A stretch of DNA of 27,002 nucleotides from a virus (IMGVR_UViG_3300045911_000772:1-27002); one strand, 5' to 3'. Counted from the first letter of the stretch, positions 1,446 through 26,815 are shown. Made by a program: numbers and translations. Notes: generated from the letters alone by a model not told the origin.

Positions 1446-1447
1446 GA

Positions 1448-7433: not shown

Positions 7434-7464
7434 AGCCCTGCCGGCCAGCAGGGCTTTTCTTTTT
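7434..7464 (+). terminator. Rho-independent terminator-like hairpin
   Basis: The stem AGCCCTGC / GCAGGGCT (7434-7441 and 7448-7455) with a 6-base loop is followed on the plus strand by TTTCTTTTT-like sequence. It points toward element B. No plus-strand gene precedes it, so it may stop antisense transcription, or act as a leader hairpin for the minus-strand operon. Confidence 0.55.
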
Positions 7465-7480
7465 GCGAGGCGGTCAGGTT

Positions 7481-7496
7481 GTACGACAGTACGACA
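7481..7496. repeat. Tandem 8-bp repeat near the right end of element A
   Basis: GTACGACA occurs twice without a gap, about 100 bases from the att core at 7593. By analogy with the TACTCCATT repeats of element B it may be an arm-type integrase site for element A, or an operator for the operon starting at 7416. Confidence 0.5.
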
Positions 7497-7592
7497 TGCT
7501 GACGGACTTCCAGATGCAACTTATTGAAACCGCATGGAACGAACAAGACTGGACTAGACCGGAAAGTACTTGAGAATCAAGTGAGTCACGAA

Positions 7593-7640
7593 TTCCCAAG
7601 CTGGACGTCGTGGGTTCGAGTCCCATCTCCCGCTCCATTT
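7593..7640 (+). other. Attachment site: tRNA-Gly(CCC)-like 3' fragment between elements A and B
   Basis: The 48 bases cover the anticodon loop (TTCCCAA), the 3' anticodon stem, the variable region, the T-arm (stem GTGGG/CCCAT, loop TTCGAGT), the acceptor 3' strand CTCCCGC, a T discriminator and CCA. The 5' half of a tRNA is missing, so this is a recombination product and not a working gene. A near-identical copy is at 26768-26815 in the same orientation. The intact tRNA gene is expected on the plus strand left of the window. Confidence 0.9.
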
Positions 7641-7674: not shown

Positions 7675-7692
7675 TACTCCGTTTACTCCATT
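7675..7692. repeat. Arm-type repeat, left end of element B
   Basis: TACTCCGTT followed directly by TACTCCATT and then AAG. It matches the triple repeat at the right end (26640-26666), with the same orientation and 9-base period. It overlaps the stop codon of the integrase gene, the usual place for integrase arm-binding sites. Confidence 0.65.
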
Positions 7693-8839: not shown

Positions 8840-8892
8840 TTTCTTGCCTCTTTCCTGCGCCGAAGGCGTTGACTCTTGGCATGACCCGGATA

Positions 8893-9111
8893 CTACCATT
8901 CGCTGGTGGCCTCCAGGTGGCCTTCTTCAATCCAGCGGTCCAGCCATTCGCGCCGGATGAGGATGCGGCGGCCCACGCGGAAAACACGGGGAGGACGCAC
9001 GCCCGGCACCTTGCCGTTGATCACGTTCGAGAGGTGCGCCTTGGAGACACGCAGATATTCCGCAGCCTCCTCGAGCGTCATGATCGGCTCGGCTGGCGTG
9101 ATCGTGGGCAT
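8893..9111 (-). CDS. Excisionase/AlpA-like helix-turn-helix protein (element B)
   Basis: A 72-residue protein with a MerR-like helix-turn-helix (MTLEEAAEYLRVSKAHLSNVI), a wing (PRVFRVGRRILIRR) and a C-terminal helix (EWLDRWIEEGHL). This is the common excisionase/AlpA family that controls integration direction, and often activates the int-xis operon in satellites. It lies directly upstream of the integrase on the same strand. It is homologous to the protein at 1-234 in element A. The ATG at 9111 could be replaced by an internal ATG 10 codons later, which begins exactly at the domain. Confidence 0.88.
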   Translation of the reverse strand: MPTITPAEPIMTLEEAAEYLRVSKAHLSNVINGKVPGVRPPRVFRVGRRILIRREWLDRWIEEGHLEATSEW

Positions 9112-9127: not shown

Positions 9128-9478
9128 TTACGCGGGTCCGGTCTGGGCGGTGGGCATCAACAGGCAGTTCACGGTGGTGACGCCGTTGCCGGCGGCGACC
9201 GTGGCCACGCCCACCATGGGCTTGCTGCCCGTGCCCGCGGTCTTTGTCAACTTGGCCTGGCCCGAGTCCCAGTAGAGCTTGTCGCCCTGGGCGATGACGT
9301 CCGTGGCCACCTTGGGTAACTCGAAAACACCTTCCACTGTGACCTCCACCTCGGCTCCAGAGGCGGCATCGAACGCGGCGACGCCCACAATCGAGCCGGC
9401 CACCACCAACTGGCCGCTGGTGACGTTCGCGGGCGCGGTGACCGTGATGGTCTTGCCTTCCTGAACGAAGTTCTTCAT
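9128..9478 (-). CDS. DUF2190-family capsid decoration-like protein
   Basis: A 116-residue, beta-rich protein without Cys in its first 100 residues. It shows the typical DUF2190 pattern: MKNFVQEGKTITVTAP, GQLVVAGSIVGVAAFDAASG, VTVEGVFELPK, GDKLYWDSGQAKLT, PMVGVATVAA. Members are found next to capsid genes in tailed phages and are thought to decorate or cement the shell. Here it is the last gene of the head cluster, two genes after the capsid fusion and just before the excisionase. It has no counterpart in the visible part of element A. Confidence 0.88.
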   Translation of the reverse strand: MKNFVQEGKTITVTAPANVTSGQLVVAGSIVGVAAFDAASGAEVEVTVEGVFELPKVATDVIAQGDKLYWDSGQAKLTKTAGTGSKPMVGVATVAAGNGVTTVNCLLMPTAQTGPA

Positions 9479-9481: not shown

Positions 9482-9700
9482 TCAGATTCCTTTCGGAGTG
9501 ATGACAACCTGGCGGGGCGACGTGCTGCCGCCGCCCGCCTGTTCGATTTCCTTGTTGATGGTTGTGAGAGCCGCCTGCATCTCCGAGACGCTGCGGTAGG
9601 TCATGGAGCGGCCCTCAAATTCCACGCGCAGCGTTCCGCTGCCGATGGCGGCTATCAGGGCGTCGCGCATGCCCTGGAGTTCGGTGAGCGAGAGGGCCAT
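9482..9700 (-). CDS. gpW-like phage head-tail joining protein
   Basis: A 72-residue protein. The N-terminus (MALSLTELQGMRDALIAAIGSG), followed by TLRVEFEGRSMTYRSVSEMQAAL, matches the lambda gpW-like head-tail joining family, which plugs or extends the portal channel. The ATG at 9700 lies 2 bases after the TAA of the capsid gene, and its stop lies 3 bases before the DUF2190 gene, so all three are one operon. In a satellite this protein would form the interface to a helper tail. Confidence 0.85.
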   Translation of the reverse strand: MALSLTELQGMRDALIAAIGSGTLRVEFEGRSMTYRSVSEMQAALTTINKEIEQAGGGSTSPRQVVITPKGI

Positions 9701-9702: not shown

Positions 9703-11448
9703 TTAGGCTCCTGGATTCGCGTAGATGCCCCGGAAGTCCAGCGCGCCCGCGCCGAAATCGAGACGCGCGCGGATCTGGATGCCATCCACTTCAAAGCCTG
9801 CGCGGGTTTCCACCTGGACGCCTTCGCTGCCCGCCAGATAGGCGAACTCGATGCTCGGGAACATCATGGGGTCCGCAGCGACGTACCAGCGCGTGGCCGA
9901 CTTGGCATCGAGCCGCGGATCGACGATGAGCGTGAGCTTGCCGGCGAACGGGTTGACGTTCGCGGCCTGCGCCGGGTAGATGCTGGCGAGGTACTTCTCG
10001 GCGGTGGTTTCCAACTCGGCCGGCACAACCAGGAATTTCCCGGCGATGTCGAGCGGCGTCTTGCCGTCGAGACCTTTCTGCGAGCGCAGAGCGAGCCGCG
10101 CGGCCGCCAGCGTGGTGTCCGAGATCGCGCCGCCGCTCGCGGCGAGGTTGCCATGCGCGGCGTCGAACAACTTCTTGTTGTCCGACATCACCGGGCCCAG
10201 TCCACTGTTGGCGGTGATCAGGTCCGCGATGAACTGCGCCTCGAACTGCGCGGCCGCCGAGGCGAACAGCCGCCCGATGTCGGAGAACGCCGACAGGTTG
10301 TTGTTGACGATGGTCTGGCGGTTGATGCCGAAGATGCGGCCATAGGTGTCGAGCTTGTAGGATTCGCGGCCCTCGGCGATGGTGCCCGATTTGAACTCGC
10401 CGTTCTCGTTCACCTTCATGAGCGTGGGTGCTTGCCCCAACTGGATCGAGTAGCGATTGCGGAAATCGTTGATGGTCGCCTTGCGGCAGATCTGCTTGAT
10501 GGGCGCGGGCGCCTCGGCCATCTGCTCCTGGACCACCTTGTTGGCGACGTCGCCCAGCAGCAACGGAAAATCACTGGTGGAGCGGAGGGCGCGATCCACG
10601 ATGGAGGCGTCCGACAGCCCGATGGTTTCGATGCCACGAATGCGGAGAAGTTCTTCCGCCTGCCGGACCAGGCTGCGGCCAATGAACGGGCGCGCCGCCT
10701 CGCCCGCCTTGTGCGTCGGGTTGATCCTCATGTAGATCGCATCCGCCATGGCGGCGCGCAGGAACAGGGGATCGTCGTACCCGCTTGCCGCCACTACCGG
10801 CTGCGCCGTTCGGATCGGAGGACCAGCGCGGCGCTTCATGGCCTCGAAGGCCTCGGCGCGGGCCTGGTCCAGGGTCAGGTTGCGGGCGATCATGTCGTCG
10901 GCCTGAAGGCCGGCGATCTGGGCGATCACCCGGATTTCGTTTTCGTGGGTCTGCTCCATCGTTGCTCCTCTCACCTTCGCGGCGGGGTCGGCCCCGATCG
11001 CCACGAGGGAAATCTCTTTGCCGGTCCAGGCAGTCGCCACAATCGTGCGCGCGCCTGTGGCCGGATCCTTTTCCACGCGCCGTTGGTTCACCACGTAGCC
11101 GACCGAAATCGACCGGATGATGCCGTCGCGAATGTCATTGAGAATGGCCGCCGCGCGCTCGCTGAACCGGAGCCGGGCAACGCCGCGCTCGCCATCAACC
11201 TGCGCGCTTTCCACCACGCCGAGGATGCTGTTCACGTCCATGCGGTCGTGGGAGTTGAGCACCGGGCCGCCGATCAACTGCGAAAGGTCGACTGCCGTGG
11301 GCGACAGGTCCAGCCGCTCCTGGTAGGGCCCTTCGAGATCGAACCGGCGCACAGGCGCGGTGGTGGCGAAGACCACCTCCACAGTGCGGCGTTCCGGATC
11401 GAACGTGGCCGGCTCGAGCGTGGCCGTGCGGGTAACGAGTTCTTCCAT
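9703..11448 (-). CDS. Prohead protease / major capsid protein fusion (element B)
   Basis: A 581-residue protein. Residues 1-160 are an HK97-type prohead protease with VLNSHDR (H67) and RSISVGY (S115) as likely catalytic residues and KEISLVAIGADP at the end. Residues about 165-581 form the capsid domain (FPLLLGDVANKVV, LMKVNENGEFKSG, GRIFGINRQTIVNNNLSAF, DAAHGNLAASG, ending QIRARLDFGAGALDFRG). It builds the procapsid and matures it. It is homologous to 1448-3538 but lacks that protein's N-terminal ~85-residue domain. The ATG at 11448 is chosen because a near-perfect AAGGAGG site lies 4 to 5 bases upstream; the open frame extends further but through a palindrome. Confidence 0.92.
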   Translation of the reverse strand: MEELVTRTATLEPATFDPERRTVEVVFATTAPVRRFDLEGPYQERLDLSPTAVDLSQLIGGPVLNSHDRMDVNSILGVVESAQVDGERGVARLRFSERAAAILNDIRDGIIRSISVGYVVNQRRVEKDPATGARTIVATAWTGKEISLVAIGADPAAKVRGATMEQTHENEIRVIAQIAGLQADDMIARNLTLDQARAEAFEAMKRRAGPPIRTAQPVVAASGYDDPLFLRAAMADAIYMRINPTHKAGEAARPFIGRSLVRQAEELLRIRGIETIGLSDASIVDRALRSTSDFPLLLGDVANKVVQEQMAEAPAPIKQICRKATINDFRNRYSIQLGQAPTLMKVNENGEFKSGTIAEGRESYKLDTYGRIFGINRQTIVNNNLSAFSDIGRLFASAAAQFEAQFIADLITANSGLGPVMSDNKKLFDAAHGNLAASGGAISDTTLAAARLALRSQKGLDGKTPLDIAGKFLVVPAELETTAEKYLASIYPAQAANVNPFAGKLTLIVDPRLDAKSATRWYVAADPMMFPSIEFAYLAGSEGVQVETRAGFEVDGIQIRARLDFGAGALDFRGIYANPGA

Positions 11449-11478
11449 TTGCCTCCTTGTGATGGTTGGAAGTCGGCT

Positions 11479-11533
11479 ATCTTCGGAATTTCCGAAGATG
11501 CTGTTTGGGCGCATCTGAGGGATTTCCTCAGAT
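11479..11533. repeat. Pair of hairpins between portal and capsid genes
   Basis: Two adjacent inverted repeats. The first (11479-11499) has arms ATCTTCGGAA and TTCCGAAGAT around T and is identical to 4186-4206. The second (11513-11533) has arms ATCTGAGG and CCTCAGAT around GATTT and contains the portal stop codon. Neither is followed by a T-run, so they are more likely mRNA processing or stabilising structures, or protein-binding palindromes, than terminators. They sit just before the strong ribosome-binding site of the capsid gene. Confidence 0.75.
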
Positions 11534-12916
11534 GGCGGCCGGGTTGCCTTGCTGGGTGACCTTGCGAGGGTCGGAGTCCAACACGATGCCGGCGGCGTCG
11601 GCCGCCGCGTTGCCTGCCGCGATCTGCGCGTCCACCTCGGCCAGGTCATAGCCGAGCGACGCTACTGCCATCTCCCGCGAAATGAGTCCGGCGCGGATCG
11701 CCCGCACCATGGCGTCCACCTCGCGTTGCGGATCGGTCATCTGCATGGCAGGCGGCACCCAGGAGATGTTGTCCAGGTACTCCTGAACGCCGCCGTCCAC
11801 AGGAGGCAGCGCGCCGCGCAGGATCTCGAGTTCGAGCCAGCGCTGGAACACCGGGCGGCAGAGCATGTGGATGAACTGCCATTGCAGGGCGTCAATGTAC
11901 TTGCGAAGCTCGATCCGCCCCACGCGCGCCGAACTGTAGCTTGTGTCCGAGAGGTCGCCGGTGACCACGTCGTAGGGCAGCCCAAGACCGCTGGCGATGA
12001 GCCGCAGCTGCGTCTTGGCGAAGTCCGAGTAGCCCGCGGTCTCGGGGGGATCTGAGAACTCCATGGACTCGCCGGGAGAAAGACGTTGGATCGTGCCCGG
12101 CTCCAGGCTGGCGGTCCATGCGCTGTCCTCGGCCCTGCTCGCGCCGAGCGGGTTTTCGTTCGGTGTCGTGATGAAGCCGGTGAGCAACGCGCCGGTCTTC
12201 TGCTTGACGAGTGTCGCGCGGTCGAACTGGTCCAGGTCGTTCAGCCGCCCAAGGATCGCCATCAGTTCCGTCACGCCACGAAGCTGGCCGGGCGTCTTGG
12301 GCCGGAAGATGTGCAATACTTCGAACGACGGAATGCGGATGCTCCGCGGTAGGCGGCCCGGCTGCCCGGGATGCCACTCGTAGATGTAGTAAGCCGAGCG
12401 GCGTGCGCCCGCGAACTCGATCCCGGCGATCACGTTGTCCCGCGTGATCGTGGTGTCGATGAACTCGGCTGGCAGCAATTGCAGCCGCAGCACGCCGTCG
12501 TTGTCCGTGAGCATCCGGACGAAAACCTCGCCATCGACGAACATCGACCTGGCGGCGAGGGCTTGCTGCCCGTACCAGTTCAGCATCCCGTCCGCGTCGG
12601 AAACTTCGGTCCAACGGTTCCACCGGTTGAGGAGCAGGCCCTTGAGCGCGGCGTCTCCAATCTTCGGCAGCAATGTGATGCCCGGACCGATCACGTTGTC
12701 GACGAAGGCCTGCGCCGCTCGCGCCGCGACGGCGTTGTTCGCCACCAGGTAACGAGCCTGGTTCCGCAGCAGCGGACTCGGCGCGACGCGGCTGTAGTCG
12801 GGCACAGGGTTGTTCCACAGCCCGATGCTGCGCCGCTCGCGCGCAAGGTCGGCCGCGGCAGAGCGCACCTCGTCATTCCGCCCTGCGAAGCGGTTCTTGA
12901 AGATCCAATGGAGCAT
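11528..12916 (-). CDS. Phage portal protein, lambda type
   Basis: A 462-residue portal of the lambda gpB-like family, the dodecameric channel for DNA entry at the capsid vertex. Typical features are the N-terminal YSRVAPSPLLRNQARYLVANNAVAARAAQAFVDNVIGPGITL, the middle SAYYIYEWHPGQPG and VLHIFRPKTPGQLRGVTELM, and the C-terminal GLPYDVVTGDLSDTSYSSARVGRIELRKYID. The length is near the family norm. The ATG at 12916 lies 3 bases after the stop of the preceding small gene. Together with the GpA-type terminase it makes a complete packaging motor for element B. Confidence 0.93.
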   Translation of the reverse strand: MLHWIFKNRFAGRNDEVRSAAADLARERRSIGLWNNPVPDYSRVAPSPLLRNQARYLVANNAVAARAAQAFVDNVIGPGITLLPKIGDAALKGLLLNRWNRWTEVSDADGMLNWYGQQALAARSMFVDGEVFVRMLTDNDGVLRLQLLPAEFIDTTITRDNVIAGIEFAGARRSAYYIYEWHPGQPGRLPRSIRIPSFEVLHIFRPKTPGQLRGVTELMAILGRLNDLDQFDRATLVKQKTGALLTGFITTPNENPLGASRAEDSAWTASLEPGTIQRLSPGESMEFSDPPETAGYSDFAKTQLRLIASGLGLPYDVVTGDLSDTSYSSARVGRIELRKYIDALQWQFIHMLCRPVFQRWLELEILRGALPPVDGGVQEYLDNISWVPPAMQMTDPQREVDAMVRAIRAGLISREMAVASLGYDLAEVDAQIAAGNAAADAAGIVLDSDPRKVTQQGNPAAI

Positions 12917-12919: not shown

Positions 12920-13294
12920 CTATTGCTTGAAGTGGATGGTGTTCATCTGGCCTCCAACCCCGCTTTTCGCCCGCGCTGGCTGTTGCGGCCACGTCTTTGC
13001 GCCCTTAAGTACTCGGTTCAGCTCGACATCGCGTGCGATCTGGGCGCTCTCGCGAAGGTCCGCCTTTATCTGCCTCTCGCAACCGAACCGTTCCGGCCGG
13101 TAGCGGACGCCCTCTGGTTTCACGTACCGGATGCGGCTGTGATTGCCTACGCCGACGTAGCCGGTGAGAATGATCCTGGTCGCAACCTCCACACCTGAGG
13201 TTGACAGGCGAACCCGTCCCGAATAGTCCACCACCTCGACTGGCGTTGTCTGCCTGCGCAGGATCTCCTCCAGTTGTTCTCCACAGAATTGCAT
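12920..13294 (-). CDS. Small hypothetical protein upstream of portal
   Basis: A 124-residue protein of unrecognised family. The sequence starts MQFCGEQLEEILRRQ and has a beta-rich core (PVEVVDYSGRVRLSTSG, ATRIILTGYVGVGNHSRIRYV) and a basic C-terminus. A GGGAGA ribosome-binding site lies about 9 bases before the ATG at 13294; a GTG two codons earlier is possible. Its slot between terminase and portal is where lambda-like phages keep small head-completion proteins, but no gpW signature is visible here. It could instead belong with the MerR-like gene just upstream. Confidence 0.55.
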   Translation of the reverse strand: MQFCGEQLEEILRRQTTPVEVVDYSGRVRLSTSGVEVATRIILTGYVGVGNHSRIRYVKPEGVRYRPERFGCERQIKADLRESAQIARDVELNRVLKGAKTWPQQPARAKSGVGGQMNTIHFKQ

Positions 13295-13317
13295 GGGCAC
13301 ATTTCTCCCAATGGTGG

Positions 13318-13345: not shown

Positions 13346-13897
13346 TTACGAACGCGATTGAGCCGACTGTTCCTGTAGCAGGCGCTCAACCTCGAGCAAG
13401 ACAGGGTGTACAACGCCCATGAGGTCGATGATCAACATGACGGTGTCGCCCTTTGGCGGGCGCATCTGCGTTTTTCGTTCTTCAGTGAAATCCTTCTTGC
13501 GGATCGTCCAAGGACGTTGGGTGGTGTAGAACTTGCCGTGCTTGTCTTTGCCGATTGCGACCCAGAAGGATTCGTACTCCGGGAATTCGCCTGTGCGCTC
13601 ATTTCTAAGCCACTTCGTAGTGTCCAGTGCCTCTGCTTGAAACATCCGATCGAGGGCGTCCGCGATTTCGGCTGCCAAAGAGACAGGAAGACCCCACTCG
13701 GTGACGCGGCCCATGACGGTTAACGAGATGATGTTCTTCAGGGAGTAAAATCGCCGCTGACCGTGGCCGGGGTTCTTCTCCGATGCCGGCGTGATGAGTC
13801 CGCGATTTACCCAAGTCTGGATAGTAGCCATGGTCAGGCCAGTCGCCCGCATCACTTCGGCGTTCACGAACTGCGGGTCGTTCAGACTGATCAACAT
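13346..13897 (-). CDS. MerR-like helix-turn-helix regulator (element B)
   Basis: A 183-residue protein with an N-terminal MerR-type winged helix (residues about 10-75: FVNAEVMRATGLTMATIQTWVNRGLITPA, then a wing with GQRRFYSLKNIISL). Its C-terminal domain is of unknown function (SFWVAIGKDKHGKFYTTQRPWTI, GDTVMLIIDLMGVVHPVLLEVERLL). It is related in layout to the 637-1098 protein of element A. A promoter with a perfect TTGACA and a 9-base-arm palindrome over the -10 region lie directly upstream, so it likely binds there and regulates itself. It stands between the cas operon and the portal operon, so it may set the expression of the head genes downstream. Confidence 0.8.
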   Translation of the reverse strand: MLISLNDPQFVNAEVMRATGLTMATIQTWVNRGLITPASEKNPGHGQRRFYSLKNIISLTVMGRVTEWGLPVSLAAEIADALDRMFQAEALDTTKWLRNERTGEFPEYESFWVAIGKDKHGKFYTTQRPWTIRKKDFTEERKTQMRPPKGDTVMLIIDLMGVVHPVLLEVERLLQEQSAQSRS

Positions 13898-13916
13898 CGG
13901 CGTCGCTCCGTCCTAT

Positions 13917-13936
13917 CAAGTAGCATGTGCTACTTG
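13917..13936. promoter_or_regulatory. Palindromic operator of the element B MerR-like gene
   Basis: A perfect inverted repeat with arms CAAGTAGCA and TGCTACTTG separated by TG, ending 20 bases upstream of the regulator ATG. It overlaps the proposed -10 box, the position of a repressing or DNA-distorting operator. A dimeric MerR-family protein would be expected to bind such a site. Confidence 0.75.
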
Positions 13937-13950
13937 CTGCGTTCTGTCAA
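13922..13950 (-). promoter_or_regulatory. Promoter of the element B MerR-like gene
   Basis: On the minus strand a perfect -35 box TTGACA (13945-13950) is followed after 17 bases by a weak -10, CATGCT (13922-13927), lying inside the palindrome. A strong -35 with a poor -10 buried in an operator is typical of an activator-dependent or tightly regulated promoter. The rest of the 149-base gap to the csb2 stop holds no further recognised signal and no CRISPR-like repeat. Confidence 0.55.
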
Positions 13951-14046
13951 TACTTGCCGCTGCCTCGTATTTAGGCCTTTAGAATCAATGGATTGCTTGA
14001 CTGGTCGCTGCGGTGCGGTAGCCGTTAATTATGCGAGCGCCCCGGA

Positions 14047-15618
14047 TCACAAAGGTAGAAAAAGGCCATAGCCCTGGTAGCGGCGATCACCGAGGATGAG
14101 GGGACCCCTGACTGGCTCGACGAATTCAAGACGTGCATGGGTGAGCACAGCAGAGTCACCTGGCGTCCGATAGCACTCAGCGCGGCGAGTACTCGGTAAG
14201 AGCGGCGACGGCGTGAGAATCACGGAACAGGAAGCAGCCACATCTTCTGGGATGCAAATGTGACGCAAGCTGGAGCGGAGCAGGTCCGTCCACTCGGCCA
14301 GCCTCCGGAGGTGTCGCTCATTGGCTGACAGTCTGCGCGACCCGTCCGGCGAGTGTGTAGGCACCTTGAATCCGCGCGCAAGCGCGACCGGAATCACAGA
14401 CTGCCAGATCCGGCTGGAACGTATGAACTGTGACCAAACCTTGTCCCGCTCTGGCCGACCCGGAACCTGCAAGAGCTGGTACGCCGATGTCCCCTTCTCG
14501 ATGACCTCTCCGTCCATCGCGGCGCACAACACACGGTAAATCTCATGTGCCACACTCTCGATGCCAGCGGCGGTGTAACCCAAAAGCGCGAAACGCCGGA
14601 CACGACCATCGGCCCTCCCGTGGACGCTGACGGACGGTAATGGCACAAATGCGAGGTGGGGTTGTTCGGTTCGCTTCTCCTCGCCGGGAGGATGCCCCGA
14701 AATCAACTCCTGAGCAAGTTCAGGCTGGTCCCAACGCTCCGACCGGAGAGCAATATCCACAGCCCTCTCTCTGATCAGACTACGCCAGAAACCAACGTTC
14801 TCGGGGTCGCAGGAAAGCGGCAATACGTCAGGGTCGTCAGTAATTGGAACGAGTTGAAACAGTGAAACATGTATCGGAAGCAAGCCCGTGACCGCTTCGC
14901 GCACATAGCCTTGGCGGCTCAGAAACCTGCTCGCCGGCGATCTGCGAGTCCGGGCTGGAACAACCTGAGCATGGTTACGGATCAAGTCATCCGTTGTGCC
15001 CGACTTGGCGACCAAAAGATCAACCTCGTAGCCTTGGCTCCTCGGCCACCATTTTTCGTTCTCAACGTCGTTATCCCAGGAAGGGACTTCCCCCAGTAGA
15101 ATTTGGCCCTCGACACGATCCTCGGCGCGCCCGAGATAACGGACCTGCGCCGTCAAATCCCTCAACGTCTGAAACTGCTGTTCAGCAGCTTGTTGGGAAA
15201 CAACGTCTTCCAACTGCCAGGTGTATGTAACTGAGAGCGGGCCGCGTGAACGCCCAACAGCGCGGCGCGGCAGCGTGGGAGCAAGCAGAATGGATGTTCG
15301 CGTCAGATCGGACTTTGCCGGATTGTTCTGCGGGATCGCCAGTCGAAAGCGCGTTGCCGAAACGTCATCTTCGAAAATTGGTGAGGCGATGATTCGCGGA
15401 GGGGGCTGCTTCTCGAGCCAGCGCAGCGCGTCCAACGCATCCTTCGCCAGTTGCTGCTCGTGTCCCTTCGGGATGCCGGTCAAGGCAGCAGCCATTAGCG
15501 CCTGATGCATCCGCGCTGGCGAAGGTGGCCAGTCCAGCACCTCTTTCCGATCCTCAGTCAGCCGGACTCCTTGGTAGCTGTGTGCAACAAAGGTCCAGCG
15601 GAGAACAAGTGCTTTCAT
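14047..15618 (-). CDS. csb2: Csb2, type I-G (I-U) Cas5-Cas6 fusion
   Basis: A 523-residue protein of the GSU0054/Csb2 family, the fused Cas5-Cas6 subunit of type I-G Cascade. The N-terminus (MKALVLRWTFVAHSYQGV, then DWPPSPARMHQALMAAALTG) and the central QVRYLGRAEDRVEGQIL are characteristic. The C-terminus carries the glycine-rich RAMP loop (GPLILGDRRYQGYGLFLPL). Cas5 caps the crRNA 5' handle, and the Cas6 part should process pre-crRNA, although no array lies inside this element. The gene overlaps the csb1 stop (TGATG); an in-frame GTG just before, at 15621, is an alternative start. It is the last gene of the cas operon. Confidence 0.9.
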   Translation of the reverse strand: MKALVLRWTFVAHSYQGVRLTEDRKEVLDWPPSPARMHQALMAAALTGIPKGHEQQLAKDALDALRWLEKQPPPRIIASPIFEDDVSATRFRLAIPQNNPAKSDLTRTSILLAPTLPRRAVGRSRGPLSVTYTWQLEDVVSQQAAEQQFQTLRDLTAQVRYLGRAEDRVEGQILLGEVPSWDNDVENEKWWPRSQGYEVDLLVAKSGTTDDLIRNHAQVVPARTRRSPASRFLSRQGYVREAVTGLLPIHVSLFQLVPITDDPDVLPLSCDPENVGFWRSLIRERAVDIALRSERWDQPELAQELISGHPPGEEKRTEQPHLAFVPLPSVSVHGRADGRVRRFALLGYTAAGIESVAHEIYRVLCAAMDGEVIEKGTSAYQLLQVPGRPERDKVWSQFIRSSRIWQSVIPVALARGFKVPTHSPDGSRRLSANERHLRRLAEWTDLLRSSLRHICIPEDVAASCSVILTPSPLLPSTRRAECYRTPGDSAVLTHARLEFVEPVRGPLILGDRRYQGYGLFLPL

Positions 15619-16919
15619 CACGCCTTCTTTTGCCTGCGCGCAGGCTTCGAAGCACCCCCTTCGGCAGGATTGGCTGGCGGTAGTGTTGCGCCTGTCGCAG
15701 ATGCAACGCTGAAGTCCTCCCTCAGGGACTCCCTCGTGAGAACAAAAGGCCCTGTTTGGTCCGGGATCTCCAGGATACCCTTCGCTTGCTTCGCGACCGC
15801 TATCAGCATGCGGCGATCCTCGTAGAGCTTCTTCAGCGCCTCCTCCTCCGCGTAAGACCCATCGCCTCCTCGGAGTTCTAATTTGCGGGAGATCGTCAGC
15901 AACTCGCAGCCCGAACGCAGCCGGTGGCTACCGGTTAAGCGAGGGTACGCCTCAGCCAGAGCGGCCAGCGCGAAGAGATACCGCCTCGCGGCGTCTGTCT
16001 TTGCTACGTCAGTCTTATTGTCTTTGTCCTGACAATTCAGCCGGGCAATGTCCGTTAGCGAAATCAGCGCCAGACGTTCAATTCTTCCTTTCACAAGGAC
16101 ACCCCCAAGCCCCTCACTAAGTGCGTTGATGTAGCCTCGCTCGGCCATCTTGTCCTGATCTGATTTGTCGGCCGCCGGCTTATCCAGTACCGCTTTGGCG
16201 AACTCGTCGGCGGAGTATGGGCCGCTGTACAGGGCGTGTCGCCGACAGGGAACTACATCGAACGCATCGATCCGCGAAAGCAGGACGCGGGCATGCTTGT
16301 GCTGCGCTTCTTCTGCGCGACTGTCCCAAAAGCCAAAGACGACACTGGTGGGCATCAGTTTCAAAAGCTTCAAGGCATCGCCATTCGCAAACGCGCTGAT
16401 CGCGGTCTTCACATCCTCCTTTTTGTCCGACAGCCGAACGCGAAAGTCAGCTACTCGATGGGGGAGCCGGAGGACGCTGTCTCCACCTCTCTTCTCACTG
16501 GATCGAGGAATCGTCACAGTCGCTTGGGGGACTAATGGCTGGAGGTCCGGGTCGTCGAGGAACGCTTCTTCCATTCGATTTGCCTGCGACTGGGGCGAGT
16601 CTAGCGCGCAACGCTCCGCACTGATGATCTGCTGGCGTTGCACAGTCGTCTTTCCCTTCCCACGAATCGTCTCTTGAACCTGACTGTACACGACGCCAGA
16701 AAGATCATAAACAGGCGGGTCATTATCCCCGGTTCCGGCGTACGATGCGGGGAATACCGGAAAGTCCATTCCGCCCGCGGGTTCCAGCGATTCGAGAACG
16801 CGAATCACTGCTGGTAGTTTTACGGCCGCGCCGGGTTTCCTGGTGTTCACACTCATCAAACGATCAAGTAGCTCGATAGCTTTGCTAAGATCGTCTTCCT
16901 GCACCTGGGATTCGGTCAT
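15618..16919 (-). CDS. csb1: Csb1, type I-G Cas7 backbone subunit
   Basis: A 433-residue protein of the GSU0053/Csb1 (Cas7) family, which forms the helical backbone of the type I-G complex along the crRNA. Diagnostic stretches are VIRVLESLEPAGGMDFPVFPASYAG near residues 40-65, SAERCALDSPQSQANRMEEAFL near 100-125, and RLPHRVADFRVRLS near 150. A C-terminal Lys/Arg-rich tail ends in RRQKKA. The ATG at 16919 is preferred because AGGAG lies about 9 bases before it; an in-frame ATG at 16928 directly abuts that site. The csb3 stop overlaps the ribosome-binding site, so the genes are translationally linked. Confidence 0.92.
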   Translation of the reverse strand: MTESQVQEDDLSKAIELLDRLMSVNTRKPGAAVKLPAVIRVLESLEPAGGMDFPVFPASYAGTGDNDPPVYDLSGVVYSQVQETIRGKGKTTVQRQQIISAERCALDSPQSQANRMEEAFLDDPDLQPLVPQATVTIPRSSEKRGGDSVLRLPHRVADFRVRLSDKKEDVKTAISAFANGDALKLLKLMPTSVVFGFWDSRAEEAQHKHARVLLSRIDAFDVVPCRRHALYSGPYSADEFAKAVLDKPAADKSDQDKMAERGYINALSEGLGGVLVKGRIERLALISLTDIARLNCQDKDNKTDVAKTDAARRYLFALAALAEAYPRLTGSHRLRSGCELLTISRKLELRGGDGSYAEEEALKKLYEDRRMLIAVAKQAKGILEIPDQTGPFVLTRESLREDFSVASATGATLPPANPAEGGASKPARRQKKA

Positions 16920-16931
16920 GATGCGCATCTC

Positions 16932-17738
16932 CTATTTTTGTTCTTCGAGTATGGCCTCCGGGAAAAACCGGTAGGCGGCGCCTTTTCCGTAGGCGGCGCC
17001 GCGGGTTGTGGTCCGATAGCGCCGCGCGGGGAATCCATCAAGCCGCCCTGCAACAGCATAAGGCACTAGGCAAAGTGAGATTGGCTGGAGCCAGATGGAA
17101 TACGAAACTGAGGCCTCACCTACTTGCCATGCTTGAACGGTGGCAAAGAATGAAGCGGTCGCGATGCTCAACAGTTCTATCGCCGGATAGACTGGATCCA
17201 GGTCCCCACTGCCGTCGTCATTGGAGCTGAAGCCGAGGTCGTATGCGTGTGAACCGACACGGCAGTCGAATCCCCAACTCCCGGCGCCACGTGCCAACTG
17301 GCAGAGCCAGGAATTCGTATGAGCCGGCAATAGAAGGCGCTGTTGCTGGTCCCTTAACAGCTTCTCTGGCGTGACCTGCGCTGAGAATGTCTTGAATGGT
17401 GAGGTCTTCTTCTTGCCGCTGGCCTCGGCGAGCAAAATGAAAGGGTTGCAGCCGATTTTGCTGCCGGCCACGAAGGTCCCTTGCTCCGCCGATCCGAAGC
17501 CTGGGACCCAATTCATGCGACGTACAAATCTGTCGGCAGCTTGGAACAAACTTGTCTCGGTAAGAGCCGTTTGCAAGACGAGCCCCTTATCACTCCACCA
17601 ACATTGAGATTCGATCCGCCCGCCGTCAGAAGTTCTTCTCCTCGCGGCAAGGGCAATGAGCGCAACTCCGGAAAGAACATGGGCTAGATTGCGTTCGTCC
17701 AACGGGAAAGACAGTTCAGAGAGGCGATCACTGCTCAT
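16932..17738 (-). CDS. csb3: Csb3, type I-G Cas8-like subunit (GSU0052 type)
   Basis: A 268-residue protein matching the Csb3/GSU0052 subunit by order and sequence style: LDERNLAHVLSGVALIALAARR at the start, then CWWSDKGLVLQTALTETSLFQAA, SKIGCNPFILLAEASGKKKTSPFKTFSAQVTPE, and a C-terminal LWLQPISLCLVPYAVAG-like beta region followed by RYRTTTRGAAYGKGAAYRFFPEA. It is presumed to be the large-subunit equivalent that recognises the target site, although the role is less well defined than for Cas8 of other subtypes. The ATG at 17738 overlaps the end of cas3 by 11 bases (ATGAGCAGTGA). The longer open frame upstream lies in cas3 and is rejected. Gene order cas3-csb3-csb1-csb2 equals the Geobacter sulfurreducens GSU0051-GSU0054 order. 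Confidence 0.85.
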   Translation of the reverse strand: MSSDRLSELSFPLDERNLAHVLSGVALIALAARRRTSDGGRIESQCWWSDKGLVLQTALTETSLFQAADRFVRRMNWVPGFGSAEQGTFVAGSKIGCNPFILLAEASGKKKTSPFKTFSAQVTPEKLLRDQQQRLLLPAHTNSWLCQLARGAGSWGFDCRVGSHAYDLGFSSNDDGSGDLDPVYPAIELLSIATASFFATVQAWQVGEASVSYSIWLQPISLCLVPYAVAGRLDGFPARRYRTTTRGAAYGKGAAYRFFPEAILEEQK

Positions 17739-20700
17739 CGGCGTCGTCCTCTTCATCCGCTTGGCTCGCCGCAGTATCGGCTGCCTTGACCAATGCCTCC
17801 AGATAGGCCAGCCGCCAGGGGCCAAGCAGACGCTGGAGTCGGGAAAAACGCTCGGCTGATTCAACGCGTATCGCGGATTGCCGCTGCTTCGAGTACGGAT
17901 GTTTCTCCAAGATGCGGTCGGCAAGCCAAGGCCTAACGTGCCCGTGGTGAGATGCGATCAAGTGACGCCAAAGATCGATCCAGATCTGCTTCTCAGAATC
18001 GGACAGTGCTGGCTCCAGGTTGGGCTGCTGTCCGCCAGTCAACTTAAGAAGTGACTCCCACTCGTGCCGGAATCCGCCCATCCTTGCTGGCTGTACAACC
18101 AGTGGCTTCGCCACAGGGTTCTTAAGATCCCTGTTCCCCATTGCCGACTGCCATTTGGGGTTGTTCTTCCCGAGGTCATGCACGCTCGATGCCTCGGAGA
18201 TCAGAGAACGTAGGAATTCGCTTCTTGGGGCTACGGTCTCCGCTATCCGGCCGCCCACGTCTTCCGCGCGTCTCAGATGTTCGTTTAAGAGCTGCGGTGA
18301 TTGCACCAGAGTCTTCACTTTAAGGTAGACAAATCGAAATTTGGCGGTACCGACGTCGAATGTTTGACTCACGCACTGCCGCCATACTTTACCCGCGGGC
18401 GGGTCGGGAGGTCGGTCACCAACAGAAGCACAGCCTGGTGGGTGCGATTCTCCAGCTGTGTTTACCGGCTCGATTCGCGAAGCTCCGTCTCCTGAAGTCA
18501 GCCGATGGTCACCAGGGTGGACTTCTTTCACTTGCCGCCAGTAGGAAGGACGTTGGGTCGACACTCCCCCCAGCACGTCACAAGTGGCAACATCGCCTGT
18601 ATCCTCCAGTAGCTCGTTTAGACTATTGTGGCCTCTCGCCAATGTCGGCAGAACCAGGATCGCATCTGGCTTCAGGATGAACCCGCTCTTGCGGTCCAAC
18701 CCGACCCGCCATTCCTCACCGTCAAAAACGGCGACTGGAATCTTCGACGCCTCCGAGGATTCGAGCCACGTCCTGGCCGCGGACATAGGAATATAGTGGA
18801 GTTCGGCGCGGCAGGGCGGAAACATCGTGAAAATCTCTTCGACACGGCCCCTGGTGGATTGCTCCTCTGATTCGTCTTCATGTTCAGGGCGGGACGCTGC
18901 TAGCCCGTCCATCTCCAGCCGGAAAGCGACACCGATCAGAGGAGTGCCTTCCTCGTCGGGTAGGATGCCGTAGAGAAACGGATGCACAGGCGTGAAGTAG
19001 TTTTGCGGGCTGGTGGTCGCCGACCAGTGCTCTATTTGAGAGGAGGTAAGGACCGGCACGGCGACGGGCCCGCCCGTTACAGGAGCCAGCCTGTGCTTTA
19101 GCCAAGAGGTGGGTGAGCGAGCATCAAGGACGCCTCGTGTGCCGAAACGAGCCCCCAGTAAAACTCTTTGCGTGGCCGCACTAATGAGTTCGGCTGGATC
19201 AAGTCGTTTTGGCTTTTTACCTCCGTTTCCCCCAGCCTCGATTTCATCGGCATTGTCTGCTCCTGCGCCGTTCGCATTAACTCCGGCTTGCTTCGAAGTG
19301 GCCATGTTCCAGTGAGCACCCACCAAGAACGAAGCCGAAGGGACATTTTCGTTCGGCAGTTCGGCGCGCAATGCTCGCGCCAACTGGATGATCCGCCGTC
19401 GAACGTCGCGCGGTGGCACATCCGGCTTGACGAAGATGGTCATGGTAGGCGCTTCGCACTGCCCAGCACGAAACCGTTGGCTGAGCCTACCGCGACGGTC
19501 CAACCGCCCAAGCCTCTGAAGCAAAGTGGGCAGCGAGGCAAAATCGCAGAGAACCGCTGATGCATCCGCATCAAGGCCAACTTCTGCCGCAGCAGTTCCG
19601 ACCAGAAAGACGCTGTCCTTGATTTCGCCTGCTTCTTCGCCTTCCTCAGAAGGACGGAAGCGTATGAATACGGGGTGTTTCTCGATCCGATCACGTTCGT
19701 ATCCGCGAAGTCGCCCCGTAATTGTCAGAACCCGGTCCTTGAACCGCTTCTGGAGATGTTTTTTGATTTTGTTCGCGACGCCTGGCTCGCGTACGAACAC
19801 AGCAATGTTCTGGTTCGCCCGGCCGAGCGCTGCGGCCTCCGCCCCAATTACTTGGTCGAATTTCTCGTCCGCGGTAATCCATCTGATCTTCACCTGTCGT
19901 GTTTGTGCGGCTATGAGACGATCAAGGAGGCGTGGATCGTCTTCGTCGTCAGGAATGAGTGTGAAGATCGAATCTGCGTTGGGTGGTGGCAGGGACGGAG
20001 TCGCGGACAGCTCCGTGGCCCAGAAAGAAAGGTGTTCGAACGTAGCGGAAAGCGCCGCAGGAATATCTCGGTCGGCCTGTTCAATGAGCCGGCGCGCTTG
20101 ACGGAGCGTAAGCAGGAACTCCGGTACGAGGTGGGCTTCGTCTACACAGATCCAAGCATCTACTCCCAGGAGAGCAGCCTGCAAAGGTCGGCTCCATTTG
20201 CCGAGACCGTACCCTTGGAACAGGAGCCGGCTGCCGATCTGGTCAACTGTACCGATAATGAGTTGTGGCACCGAGGGGACAACAGACCACTCTCGGTCAT
20301 CCACCAATTGACCCCGAAGTTGGACAACCCGAAAAATATCCGCTGGGTCTCCGCTTAAGGACACCAGTCCCTTCCGTAGTTCAGAGAGCTCGCAATTGCC
20401 TGCCGAGAGCTTGGCCTCAAGCTGGCGGGCCAAGCGAAAAACCTGCTGCACAAGCACGCGCCGATTCACGACCCAAACGAGGCGCCGAGGGACCGGCTTC
20501 CGCGAACCCCGTTCCAGCCCATACCATGCCAACGCCAGGATCCAGATAACGGTGACGTCGGTTTTGGCGGCCCCAGTGGGGAGGTCAATAAGGTTTGGAT
20601 GCCATCCCTCCGTGAGTCTCTCGAACAGCCTATGCATCCATCTCATGGGAGGCTGATCTCGCAGCGCGGTGTAATACCATTCGAAGAACTGCTCGGGACT

Positions 20701-20739
20701 TTGAGGCGAGAACTCGGTGGGTTGGATGTCCGTTTGCAT
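17728..20739 (-). CDS. cas3: Cas3 helicase-nuclease, type I-G, with C-terminal HD domain
   Basis: A 1003-residue Cas3 of the GSU0051 type. The helicase comes first: P-loop LPTGAAKT (53-60), DEAH (200-203), LSATP (244-248), motif V around 381-394 and motif VI QRLGRLDRRGR (408-418). The HD nuclease is C-terminal, as usual in this subtype: H854-D855 in SSVHDLGKNN, H892 in FRHEW, H931-H932 in SHHGH and D988 in KAADTAAS, all present. The oddity is Ala at residue 58, where Gly normally precedes the P-loop Lys; the codon reads clearly as GCC. The ATG at 20739 is 20 bases after the large terminase stop, with only a weak GAG site. The earlier open frame overlaps terminase and is rejected. GC is visibly lower than in the terminase gene. 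Confidence 0.93.
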   Translation of the reverse strand: MQTDIQPTEFSPQSPEQFFEWYYTALRDQPPMRWMHRLFERLTEGWHPNLIDLPTGAAKTDVTVIWILALAWYGLERGSRKPVPRRLVWVVNRRVLVQQVFRLARQLEAKLSAGNCELSELRKGLVSLSGDPADIFRVVQLRGQLVDDREWSVVPSVPQLIIGTVDQIGSRLLFQGYGLGKWSRPLQAALLGVDAWICVDEAHLVPEFLLTLRQARRLIEQADRDIPAALSATFEHLSFWATELSATPSLPPPNADSIFTLIPDDEDDPRLLDRLIAAQTRQVKIRWITADEKFDQVIGAEAAALGRANQNIAVFVREPGVANKIKKHLQKRFKDRVLTITGRLRGYERDRIEKHPVFIRFRPSEEGEEAGEIKDSVFLVGTAAAEVGLDADASAVLCDFASLPTLLQRLGRLDRRGRLSQRFRAGQCEAPTMTIFVKPDVPPRDVRRRIIQLARALRAELPNENVPSASFLVGAHWNMATSKQAGVNANGAGADNADEIEAGGNGGKKPKRLDPAELISAATQRVLLGARFGTRGVLDARSPTSWLKHRLAPVTGGPVAVPVLTSSQIEHWSATTSPQNYFTPVHPFLYGILPDEEGTPLIGVAFRLEMDGLAASRPEHEDESEEQSTRGRVEEIFTMFPPCRAELHYIPMSAARTWLESSEASKIPVAVFDGEEWRVGLDRKSGFILKPDAILVLPTLARGHNSLNELLEDTGDVATCDVLGGVSTQRPSYWRQVKEVHPGDHRLTSGDGASRIEPVNTAGESHPPGCASVGDRPPDPPAGKVWRQCVSQTFDVGTAKFRFVYLKVKTLVQSPQLLNEHLRRAEDVGGRIAETVAPRSEFLRSLISEASSVHDLGKNNPKWQSAMGNRDLKNPVAKPLVVQPARMGGFRHEWESLLKLTGGQQPNLEPALSDSEKQIWIDLWRHLIASHHGHVRPWLADRILEKHPYSKQRQSAIRVESAERFSRLQRLLGPWRLAYLEALVKAADTAASQADEEDDADEQ

Positions 20740-20759
20740 CTCGATGGTAAATCGGTATT

Positions 20760-22559
20760 TTACTCCTGCATCCACTGGCTGCGTGCTACCCGCGGCACAA
20801 GCGGAGGCGTAAGTCGCGCAGCTAGGGCATCGATACGGTCTGCCTCTCGCTCCAACGACAACCCCATCGAGATGAGCGCCTGGAGTGCGGCGAAGGCGTA
20901 GACGCGGCAGTCGAAGGCCTCGCCGCGCGTTGCCTTCTTCCGCCGCCACTCCCGTACTGGTGCGCCGCGTGAGTAGGTCGTCACCAGGATCTCGGACAAC
21001 AGTTGCTCGAAGTATTCCTGGCTCCGATCCGCCGGGAAGTGGCAGAAGCCGGGAGAGGGCTCGACGATCTTCAGGCGTCCGTAGACCGTCGACTTGGCGC
21101 TGTCCACGCCCACGGTGTAGAGTAACGTCCCGTTCTTGCGGCTCGGGCGTTTCGGCCACACCGGCAGTGGCCCGGCCTTGCCCTTGATCGCGAAGACCCG
21201 CTGGTGGAACCGGCCGCGCGCAAACTCGTAGACCTGCTGCGTGTGAAAGCCCGAGTCGATACAGCATGCCGAGACTGGCAGCGTGATGCCACGCTCATGC
21301 GTCCACGGCTGCGCCAGCAGTTCGTCGAGAGACTGCCATACAGCCGGCGCGGAGGGGTCGCCCGGCAACACCTGGTATGCGACGGACCAGGACTCCTCGC
21401 CGCGGCCCCAGCCGACGAGTTCCACTTCGAGCCGGTCGGCCTGCACGTCCACGCCGCACGTCAGCAACGCCACCCCGCCTGGCAACTTCGGTATGTAATG
21501 CTCGCGGCGCGCGATCAACGTGGCGAGGTCCACCGAGGTATGCGCTTCGTCGTCCCACGGCTCGCCGAGCGCAGTGTTGATGAATGTGCGAAGCGTCTCT
21601 GGGCTTTCCTTGGCCTCCAGAAACTCGGCGGCAGTCTCGCCCCACTCTTTCCACGGCGAGTACAACTGGTTGATCCAGAAACCCGCGACCTTCGAGCCAG
21701 GATTCGCCGGCCGCCACTCACCGCACGCCAGCATCCACGGCTTCTTGAACGCCGGGATGTGGACAGCGCAATGCTCGCAGAGATACGCCGCGCCCTCCGG
21801 ATCAGTGTCTGGCCACTCTACGCTCGGCCAGCGAAGGATCTGGAAGTGCCCACACTCTGGGCACGGCACCCAGTAGCTCTGCCGGTTCGATTTCAGCCAG
21901 GCCGCCTCCACCCGGGATGCGGCCTTCACCGTCGGCGAGGAAACCATCACAATCTTACGATTCCAGAACGTCGCCGTGCGCTTGATAGCCAGCGCCACCG
22001 GGTCGCCTTCAGTACCAGCGCTGGCTGGATAGCGGTCTACCTCGTCGAGCAGGACATACCGGATGGGCCGGGCGGCGAGGCCTGCCGCAGAGTTCGCGCC
22101 GGCGATAGTGATGTGGCCTCCGGGGAAACGCTTGTGGAGCGTGGTGTTGTTTGCTTCGCGCGTCCGGACGTCCGAAACCTTGCCACGCAAGCACGGCGTG
22201 TCGCGCAGCATGGGCGCGAAGCGGTCCTTGGACCATGACTTGCCGTCCTCGACGCGCGGCTGTACGACCAGCAGCGGGCCCGGATCGCGGTCCACGATGT
22301 AGCCGACGAAGTTGTTGAGGATCTCGGTCTTGCCGATCTGGGAACTGCTCATCACCACGACCCGCTCGTACGGGCTGTAAGGAGAGAGCGCGTCCATGAT
22401 GGCGCGCTGGTAGGGCGCGCGGTCGGTGCGCCAGTCGCCGCGCTCGGCCGACGCCTCCGACGATAGACGGCGGTTCTGGTCAGCCCATTCGGAGACCGTC
22501 TGGCGCGGCGACGGCTCAAGCGAATCCGCCAGGCGCGTCACGCAGACCTCAAGCCCCAT
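20760..22559 (-). CDS. terL: Large terminase subunit, GpA family
   Basis: A 599-residue packaging ATPase-nuclease of the lambda gpA-like family. ATPase motifs: SSSQIGKTE (71-79) as Walker A and YVLLDEVDRYP with D172-E173 as Walker B. A zinc-binding insert has CPEC (232-235) and CEHC (260-263). The C-terminal nuclease region carries CGVDVQADRLEVELVGWG and later ACCIDSGFHTQQV, GVDSAKSTVY and a closing KATRGEAFDCRVYAFAA. The length fits the family. It overlaps the small terminase gene by 11 bases. Directly after its stop comes cas3 rather than the usual small head gene and portal, so the cas operon is inserted in the packaging cluster. Confidence 0.95.
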   Translation of the reverse strand: MGLEVCVTRLADSLEPSPRQTVSEWADQNRRLSSEASAERGDWRTDRAPYQRAIMDALSPYSPYERVVVMSSSQIGKTEILNNFVGYIVDRDPGPLLVVQPRVEDGKSWSKDRFAPMLRDTPCLRGKVSDVRTREANNTTLHKRFPGGHITIAGANSAAGLAARPIRYVLLDEVDRYPASAGTEGDPVALAIKRTATFWNRKIVMVSSPTVKAASRVEAAWLKSNRQSYWVPCPECGHFQILRWPSVEWPDTDPEGAAYLCEHCAVHIPAFKKPWMLACGEWRPANPGSKVAGFWINQLYSPWKEWGETAAEFLEAKESPETLRTFINTALGEPWDDEAHTSVDLATLIARREHYIPKLPGGVALLTCGVDVQADRLEVELVGWGRGEESWSVAYQVLPGDPSAPAVWQSLDELLAQPWTHERGITLPVSACCIDSGFHTQQVYEFARGRFHQRVFAIKGKAGPLPVWPKRPSRKNGTLLYTVGVDSAKSTVYGRLKIVEPSPGFCHFPADRSQEYFEQLLSEILVTTYSRGAPVREWRRKKATRGEAFDCRVYAFAALQALISMGLSLEREADRIDALAARLTPPLVPRVARSQWMQE

Positions 22560-23016
22560 GGCGGATGTCCTCGGCGAGGCCCTTCAGAATGACGGTCACC
22601 TCGGTGTCGAGGATCTCGCGGACCCGGCGCACGTCAGTCTCGGCAGCCAATTGCGGCGCAAGCTTGCTGGCGATCCCGAGCACGCGGTCACGGATCTGGC
22701 GGCCCAGCGTGTACCACTTGATGCTGACTTCGTCAGTCGGGACGAGCTTCCCAATCCGCGTCTCGTACTCCAGCTTCTTCAGCTTCGCGGAGAACACCTC
22801 GCGCGCCAGCCGGGCCTGCGCAAACGTGGTCGGCTGCTGGCTGACGGGCGCCTCGTCGGGTCTGTCATCCAGCACGGCGTCCGACGCGGTGGCATCCGCC
22901 ATGCGCCCGCGCATAACCAGGATGCCCGCCTTCGCCAGTTTGCCGATGTACTGCGGGCTCTTGCCGCGATGCCGGGCGTATTGCGCCTGGGTCATAAGGA
23001 TGGAGTTGTTGTTCAT
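22549..23016 (-). CDS. terS: Small terminase subunit (Nu1-like)
   Basis: A 155-residue DNA-recognition subunit of the packaging motor. It has an N-terminal helix-turn-helix (MTQAQYARHRGKSPQYIGKLAKAGILV), a linker, a coiled-coil-rich middle (FAQARLAREVFSAKLKKLEYETRIGKLVP) and a C-terminal helical part (IRDRVLGIASKLAPQLAAETDVRRVREILDTEV). This pattern is typical of phage Nu1-like small terminases. The start is taken at the ATG at 23016; an in-frame TTG at 23028 is possible. It is divergent from the toxin-antitoxin operon, whose probable promoter lies in the same short gap. Confidence 0.85.
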   Translation of the reverse strand: MNNNSILMTQAQYARHRGKSPQYIGKLAKAGILVMRGRMADATASDAVLDDRPDEAPVSQQPTTFAQARLAREVFSAKLKKLEYETRIGKLVPTDEVSIKWYTLGRQIRDRVLGIASKLAPQLAAETDVRRVREILDTEVTVILKGLAEDIRHGA

Positions 23017-23036
23017 TGGTGTCGGCAACCTGCTGA

Positions 23037-23057: not shown

Positions 23058-23306
23058 ATGGACATTCATCTCGATTCGCGGGGCGAACACCTGATCGAGC
23101 AGCAGCTCCGATCGGGCCGCTATCACTCTGCCGAGCAGGTCGTTGTCAGCGCGCTCGAGGCCCTCGCCGGAAACGGTACCCCTCGCACCGATGACGAGCG
23201 ACGCAAGGCTGTACAAGACATGCTGGCCTTCGCGGAAAAGCATCGTTTGACGTTGGGGGAAGGCGTCCGCATTCGCGACCTGATCCACGAGGGGCACAAG
23301 TACTGA
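23058..23306 (+). CDS. Antitoxin, ribbon-helix-helix ParD-like
   Basis: An 82-residue protein. Residues 1-40 look like a ribbon-helix-helix ParD-type DNA-binding domain (MDIHLDSRGEHLIEQQLRSGRYHSAEQVVVSALEAL). The C-terminal half is charged and likely wraps the toxin (ERRKAVQDMLAFAEKHRLTLGEGVRIRDLIHEG). It precedes a PIN toxin by 3 bases, the normal antitoxin-first order. Such antitoxins neutralise the toxin and repress the operon. It is one of only two genes of element B on the plus strand. Confidence 0.82.
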   Translation: MDIHLDSRGEHLIEQQLRSGRYHSAEQVVVSALEALAGNGTPRTDDERRKAVQDMLAFAEKHRLTLGEGVRIRDLIHEGHKY

Positions 23307-23309
23307 TCG

Positions 23310-23726
23310 ATGTCTCCGTTCGTGGTAGACGCCTCGATGACGTTGAGCTGGTGCTTTTGGGACGAGGCGACACCACAGAGCCGCGCCGTGCTTGCCGCCC
23401 TCCAAACCACCTACGCCGTCGTGCCAGCATTGTGGCCGTTCGAAATCGCGAATGGCCTGGCAATTGCCGAACACCGGAAACGCATCAGCCAAGACCAGAT
23501 CGCGGAATTCCTGGAAACGCTGCGGAGGCTCCCGATTCAGGTGGAACGGCGGGAGGCCGTCTGGCTATGCCAGGCGATCATACAACTTGCCCGTGACCAC
23601 AAGCTGACGGCGTACGACGCCGCCTACCTGGACTTAGCGAGGCGGGAGCAACTGAGCCTCGCCACTCTGGATCACGACCTTCGAGAGGCTGGCCTTGCCC
23701 TCGGTGTGGCAGCCGTTGCCTTTTGA
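23310..23726 (+). CDS. vapC: PIN-domain toxin, VapC type
   Basis: A 138-residue PIN ribonuclease. The acidic catalytic set is visible: D7 in FVVDASMTLSW, E45 in LWPFEIANGLA, D103 in LTAYDAAYLDLA and D121 in LATLDHDLREA. VapC toxins cleave tRNA or rRNA when the antitoxin is lost. Length and order fit the family. In an integrated satellite the pair probably stabilises the element or acts as abortive defence; the sequence does not distinguish these. It converges with the primase gene, and the origin region lies between them. Confidence 0.92.
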   Translation: MSPFVVDASMTLSWCFWDEATPQSRAVLAALQTTYAVVPALWPFEIANGLAIAEHRKRISQDQIAEFLETLRRLPIQVERREAVWLCQAIIQLARDHKLTAYDAAYLDLARREQLSLATLDHDLREAGLALGVAAVAF

Positions 23727-23840: not shown

Positions 23841-23966
23841 GGTGACGGGTTCGAGCCTGTGACGGCTTGTGACCGGTTTTTCTCAAAAACGGTCCTTATA
23901 CGCGCGGGGCGAAGAATGTTTTGAGAAAAAGGCATCACAACTCGTCACGCCGCAAACCCGTCACAC
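23841..23966. other. Probable replication origin of element B (iterons plus inverted repeat)
   Basis: The gene-free stretch 23727-23960 holds GTGAC-type repeats: GGTGACGGG (23841-23849), TGTGACGG (23858-23865) and TGTGACCGG (23868-23876). In opposite orientation are CGTCACG (23943-23949) and a CCGTCAC site at the primase stop. Between the two groups is an AT-rich inverted repeat, TTTTTCTCAAAA (23877-23888) and TTTTGAGAAAAA (23919-23930). As in element A it abuts the 3' end of the primase-helicase gene and shares the GTCAC core. An origin is the best explanation; a bidirectional terminator between convergent genes is the alternative for the inverted repeat alone. Confidence 0.6.

Positions 23967-26767: not shown

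Positions 26768-26815
<48 letters not shown>

Follow-up and report, generated by a model that had tools for sequence, protein, structure and literature searches.

This analysis of a metagenomic viral record of 27,002 bases (IMGVR_UViG_3300045911_000772:1-27002, a complete IMG/VR record with no larger assembly behind it, hereafter the window, i.e., the whole stretch of DNA that was analysed) indicated that an intact four-gene operon, cas3-csb3-csb1-csb2 (14047-20739, minus strand), lies among the packaging and head genes of a capsid-forming phage satellite. Judged by its genes, the operon is the full interference gene set of a type I-G CRISPR (clustered regularly interspaced short palindromic repeats) system, with a predicted RNA-guided interference activity. 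We hold, with a confidence slightly above even, that it is a defence cassette in an accessory slot of the satellite, fed with guides from host arrays. The narrower proposition, that this guide-less effector is armed on its satellite by the CRISPR RNAs (crRNAs) of whatever type I-G array the host has, is put forward more tentatively, its chances being somewhat below even.

The gene order and the type I-G assignment, already proposed in an earlier note on this DNA, were confirmed by curated models and by a profile-profile comparison. The cas3 gene (17728-20739), encoding a Cas3g protein with a helicase followed by a C-terminal HD nuclease, matched TIGR02621 with 436 bits for a cut-off of 400 (E 6e-130). 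The backbone subunit gene csb1 (cas7g, 15618-16928) matched TIGR02570 (74 bits for a cut-off of 38) and PF09617, also above its cut-off, and csb2 (14047-15621), a cas5-cas6 fusion assigned to crRNA processing, reached 166 bits with TIGR02165, the signature of the type I-G effector module, for a cut-off of 45. Pfam and PADLOC concurred with these three assignments. The product of csb3 (16932-17756) found no direct match among the library models; a profile made of this product and its homologue in the genome G689 was aligned by hhalign to 54 Cas8g2/Csb3 homologues with a probability of 98.6% (E 1e-15), against 0.1% for a Csb1 control, which identifies csb3 as cas8g2, i.e., the large subunit in its small variant. 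Position 17756 (MKRTTPMSSD) is a better start for this gene than 17924. All four genes are on the minus strand, and neighbouring genes overlap (29 nt for cas3/csb3, 4 nt for csb1/csb2) or abut. Cas3 retains Walker A, DEAH, motif VI and the HD-nuclease residues, the catalytic residues being invariant. Csb2 retains, near its C-terminus, a 95% conserved His495 which, matched by position, is presumably the counterpart of H503, the catalytic residue in T. sulfidiphilus (PMC9638904). Sequence comparison with solved structures gave no match for Csb1, Csb3 or Cas3.

The absence of cas1, cas2, cas4 and a repeat-spacer array, also claimed previously, withstood several searches of the window. The best hit of a tblastn search with eight Cas1/Cas4-1/Cas2 proteins had an E-value of only 0.07, the positive control, a Csb2 query, giving 5e-127. 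A direct-repeat scan returned no repeat pair spaced 40-109 nt, and a handle-motif search for an array was negative. A covariance model of 33 type I-G repeats taken from homologous loci, run on the window with filters off, reached 10.5 bits at best (E 0.7), i.e., the level of chance, while it recovered arrays on which it had not been trained, at 22-24 bits in the locus L151 and up to 46 bits in the 115-repeat array of G689. Neither cas4/1 with cas2 nor a type I-G array, which together mark a complete type I-G locus, was thus found in the record. As the element contains neither array nor adaptation genes, guides must come from elsewhere.

The carrier of the operon is a 19.2 kb element between two attachment (att) copies, one at the integrase end (7593-7640, plus strand) and one at the primase end (26768-26815, plus strand). 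These direct repeats (D2) of 48 nt are 96% identical and correspond to the 3' end of tRNA-Gly(CCC). They delimit one element, as the earlier note had supposed; its picture has to be corrected on one point, since the DNA preceding 7593 is part of another satellite, arranged in tandem. Gene-by-gene annotation agreed with the gene content it had described. On the minus strand, the element encodes a tyrosine integrase (7691-8899, phrog_1), an AlpA-like excisionase (8893-9111, phrog_66), a head decoration protein (9128-9478, phrog_122), the head-tail adaptor Ad1 (9482-9700, phrog_2545), a prohead protease-major capsid fusion (9703-11649, NF045541, 669 bits), a lambda-type portal (11528-12916, TIGR01539), a small backbone gene product with 40-96% identity across relatives (12920-13300) and a MerR-like regulator (13346-13897, PF13411). 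Beyond the operon, and on the same strand, lie terL, the large terminase gene (GpA type, 20760-22559, PF05876 and PF20454), terS, the small terminase gene (Nu1 type, 22549-23028, phrog_57), and a P4/D5-type primase-helicase gene (23961-26330, PF08706 and TIGR01613), with a VapBC-like toxin-antitoxin pair on the plus strand between terS and the primase (23058-23726). This annotation of the element contained no tail or lysis gene. Integrase, excisionase, head, terminase and primase genes without tail or lysis genes make up the repertoire of a capsid-forming satellite, and the carrier, known here from its genes, is such a satellite, predicted to need the tails of another phage.

Within this backbone, the operon occupies a cargo slot extending from the terL stop to the merR promoter (13951-20760, minus strand). 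Backbone identity to relatives, followed by blastn, indeed ends at the terL stop (20759-20764) and restarts at 13951 or 13003. The slot contents differ in all relatives except one, the genome G447. L004 has an nSTAND NTPase there; L006 a type II methylase together with IS3 and an HNH-like protein; G775 an Hhe/PDC-S37-like helicase; L193 and L194 an Eco57I-type methylase and a type I specificity subunit, respectively; and G762, which is more distant, two methylases. In L007, the slot contains WG-repeat and PIN-like (DUF5615) genes with no clear defence match. The GC content of the slots measured (window, L004, L006, L007) was 0.58-0.60, with 0.58 for the window, against 0.64 for the backbone, and the GC content at third codon positions was 0.62-0.64 for the cas genes against 0.83-0.86. 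The same site thus holds differing defence genes of distinct base composition, i.e., it is a defence-cargo slot. Because relatives mostly fill it with other defence-like genes, the operon appears as swappable defence cargo, and a defensive role becomes more likely.

The location of the operon between terL and the portal gene, claimed by the earlier note, was borne out, which places an effector-only type I-G set inside a capsid-encoding satellite. That note had proposed a search of related genomes for the same arrangement, and G447 reproduces the terL-cas3 junction: its contig C10 starts within cas3 and runs into terL, and positions 18697-21366 of the window align to it with 89% nucleotide identity. 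The first 675 residues of G447 Cas3 form an open frame, 87% identical to Cas3 of the window. Over 672 codons, the ratio of nonsynonymous to synonymous substitution rates (dN/dS) was 0.37, with a synonymous excess at p 1.8e-9, which shows that Cas3 is under selection and has remained functional. As a separate observation, another Cas1/Cas2 region, adjacent to a Csx/CARF-like gene and probably of another CRISPR type, is present on contig 12 of G447 (locus L305).

The host of the satellite is most likely close to Bryobacterales (Acidobacteriota). An intact tRNA-Gly(CCC) lies next to the satellite in relatives whose backbone proteins are 85-96% identical; this tRNA is 97% identical to those of two Bryobacterales genomes. 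TerL relatives were found in 29 of the 399 genomes of the class of Bryobacterales, the best (95%) in G775, and the integrase is 96% identical in G447 and 90% in G775, next to tRNA-Gly in both. These tRNA, TerL and integrase matches all point to an acidobacterium. An alphaproteobacterial host, considered on account of tRNA matches in Roseomonas and Microvirga, was ruled out, TerL being just 54% identical there and the tRNA 97% identical in Bryobacterales.

Complete type I-G systems of the same class provide a likely origin for the operon. Its closest complete relative is the locus of G689, an acidobacterial genome of that class, with identities of 48% for Csb2, 54% for Csb1, 39% for Csb3 (at the same position) and 41-51% for Cas3; this locus has divergent cas2 and cas4/1 and the 115-repeat array mentioned above. 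In the Cas3 tree, the sequences of the window, G447 and G689 group together in a single, fully supported clade. The lone long branch of the window in a first tree was resolved once G447 and G689 were added. By this clade and its similarity to G689, the satellite operon represents the interference part of a type I-G lineage that also occurs in this class. The G689 locus and the type I-G system (Cas8g2) of the Cereibacter plasmid CP031754 have the same cas3-cas8g2-cas7g-cas5/6g order and orientation as the satellite, but both carry cas4/1, cas2 and arrays (115 and about 27 repeats), of which the satellite operon has none. Csb1 of type I-G systems was detected in 36 of the 399 sampled genomes of the class (about 9%). 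Single-sequence and alignment scans of IMG/VR, which used exact short patterns and so leave absence unproven, returned just one further type I-G operon, and no GenBank phage matched Csb1 or Cas3. The IMG/VR contig in question (L190) contains csb1-csb2-cas3 of a different clade beside phage replication genes, an integrase and a WYL regulator, and is probably host DNA next to a prophage. Three proteobacterial type I-G loci (L140, L102 and L118), which form a Cas3 clade of their own, have arrays and no cas1, cas2 or cas4 within the flanks taken, and are interference-only systems retaining their array.

The favoured, if unproven, mechanism for the satellite operon is the use in trans of guides borrowed from the host. 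A pre-crRNA, transcribed from an array that the host carries at another site, would be cut by Csb2, Csb1 subunits and Cas8g2 would assemble on the guide, and this complex would recruit Cas3, so that matching DNA would be unwound and degraded. Host and satellite would thereby be shielded from phages or rival elements. Guides in trans are plausible because Csb1 is present in the 36 class genomes mentioned and because the cas3-bearing G447 has type I-G-type repeats (about 40 bits); these are situated next to ordinary genes of the chromosome, at the edge of contig C19, which contains no cas gene. By the covariance model, no such repeats were found in G775 and G496, two sister genomes with satellites devoid of cas genes where the slot was readable, and this pattern fits a supply of guides in trans. 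That supply, the processing, the target and the benefit are all parts of the explanation that we infer. The comparison of spacers proposed by the earlier note pointed to no helper phage, rival satellite or plasmid as the target: the 692 and 116 spacers of related type I-G arrays gave no match to satellites beyond chance.

Several observations weigh against a functional cassette fed by host guides. The repeats of G447 are few, partly degenerate and located at a contig edge, and they are nearer to the repeat of L119 (AATTCCGCGATCAATTGATCGCGGCCCCATTGAAGC) than to those of G689, the closest cas relative. The co-occurrence of array and cassette rests on three genomes, too few for a test, and the window record, being the whole assembly, offers no host array to pair with the operon. 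Selection was measurable for Cas3 alone among the operon genes. In the G447 assembly, csb1 and csb2 were not found, terL is reduced to its final third and borders on chromosomal genes, and the integrase end is on a separate contig (C14); the missing csb genes and the truncated terL suggest that this copy may have decayed in part or been split during assembly. Finally, no minus-strand promoter was found for the operon beyond chance level. Since cas3 starts about 20 nt past the terL stop on the same strand, a junction also kept in G447, the operon could be co-transcribed with the packaging genes.

The incomplete G447 copy is also what an orphan remnant would leave, i.e., an effector half caught by chance during slot exchange, guide-less and heading for loss. 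The lack of array and adaptation genes and the fast turnover of the slot agree with such a remnant, which we nonetheless regard as unlikely, in view of four intact, overlapping genes with retained catalytic residues and of the dN/dS of Cas3 between the two satellite copies. Cas subunits without an array, in a class where about 9% of the sampled genomes have type I-G systems, could also act as a guide thief or decoy, Csb2, Csb1 and Cas8g2 sequestering or re-aiming resident type I-G crRNAs so that the satellite escapes or controls host immunity. A decoy would have no need of Cas3, yet Cas3 is complete and under selection, which makes this role improbable. We give similarly poor chances to a split system, with guides supplied by another mobile element (helper phage, plasmid or second satellite): one cell and site can be shared by several satellites, as seen from the tandem neighbour, but no type I-G repeat was found in the part of this neighbour within the window or in the satellite loci L191, L195 and L200 (searched with R1), and the arrays of the class so far adjoin chromosomal genes or cas loci. 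Fusion of host cas genes to a satellite contig during assembly, conceivable for a single metagenomic record, can be dismissed almost entirely, as the terL-cas3 junction recurs at nucleotide level in independent data from G447, which excludes a chimeric window, and as both slot borders match those of other relatives.

Capsid-forming satellites have already been described (PMC10803314, PMC11389934), and effectors without adaptation genes are known from mobile elements (PMC9071438, PMC12596717); the combination of array-less effectors with such a satellite is new. The carrier resembles capsid-forming phage-inducible chromosomal islands (cf-PICIs) in its integrase, AlpA-like excisionase, primase, TerS, TerL, portal, capsid and adaptor and in its lack of tail and lysis genes. 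It differs in size (19 kb here, typically 14 kb in cf-PICIs) and in host, the described hosts being Enterobacteriaceae, Lactobacilli, Enterococci and similar bacteria (PMC10803314) and the present one belonging most likely to Acidobacteriota. The CRISPR-Cas system that phage ICP1 directs against the satellite PLE (phage-inducible chromosomal island-like element) likewise places CRISPR in a phage-satellite conflict, but there the helper phage holds CRISPR-Cas and anti-satellite spacers (PMC12987554), whereas here the satellite holds the cutting half, without spacers. Haloarchaeal provirus type I-B systems without cas1, cas2 and cas4 (PMC12596717) similarly have interference genes and no adaptation genes; they have spacers of their own and differ from the satellite operon in subtype, host domain and element. 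Orphan cas loci of plasmids and the array-less type III-G (PMC9071438, PMC12669027) also combine effectors with a lack of arrays, but differ in subtype and carrier; for type III-G, crRNAs in trans have been proposed (PMC12669027). Satellites go unmentioned in a 2024 review on CRISPR and mobile elements, and the open-access literature searched described neither CRISPR effector genes within a capsid-forming satellite nor a cf-PICI with CRISPR cargo nor a phage satellite of Acidobacteriota. In that literature, CRISPR in phage-satellite conflicts is known only on the helper-phage side. A family of capsid-forming satellites equipped with a defence slot is reported here in Acidobacteriota, and one member with a full but guide-less type I-G effector in this swappable slot renders the hypothesis of borrowed guides testable: satellite hosts would be expected to have matching arrays, and the effector to work with host crRNAs. 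If this is true, such satellites would move from cell to cell a memory-less, portable pair of shears, armed by the host.

Besides the operon, putative regulatory elements were observed in the satellite and its neighbour. A merR promoter, TTGACA-19 bp-TGCTAC with the dyad AAGTAGCACATGCTACTT (about 13905-13950, minus strand), is conserved in L007, and its MerR-type spacing suggests control of merR itself or of the head genes. Positions 1-7592 of the window are part of the second satellite, inserted in tandem at the same tRNA-Gly site and of similar plan, with excisionase, MerR, protease-capsid fusion, short TerS-like and P4-type primase genes; TerL and portal were not found in the part present. 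A perfect 22-nt dyad, ATCTTCGGAATTTCCGAAGATG, found in identical form in each of the two satellites (4186-4207 and 11479-11500) and accompanied by a related copy at 11513, is a possible candidate for an operator common to them.

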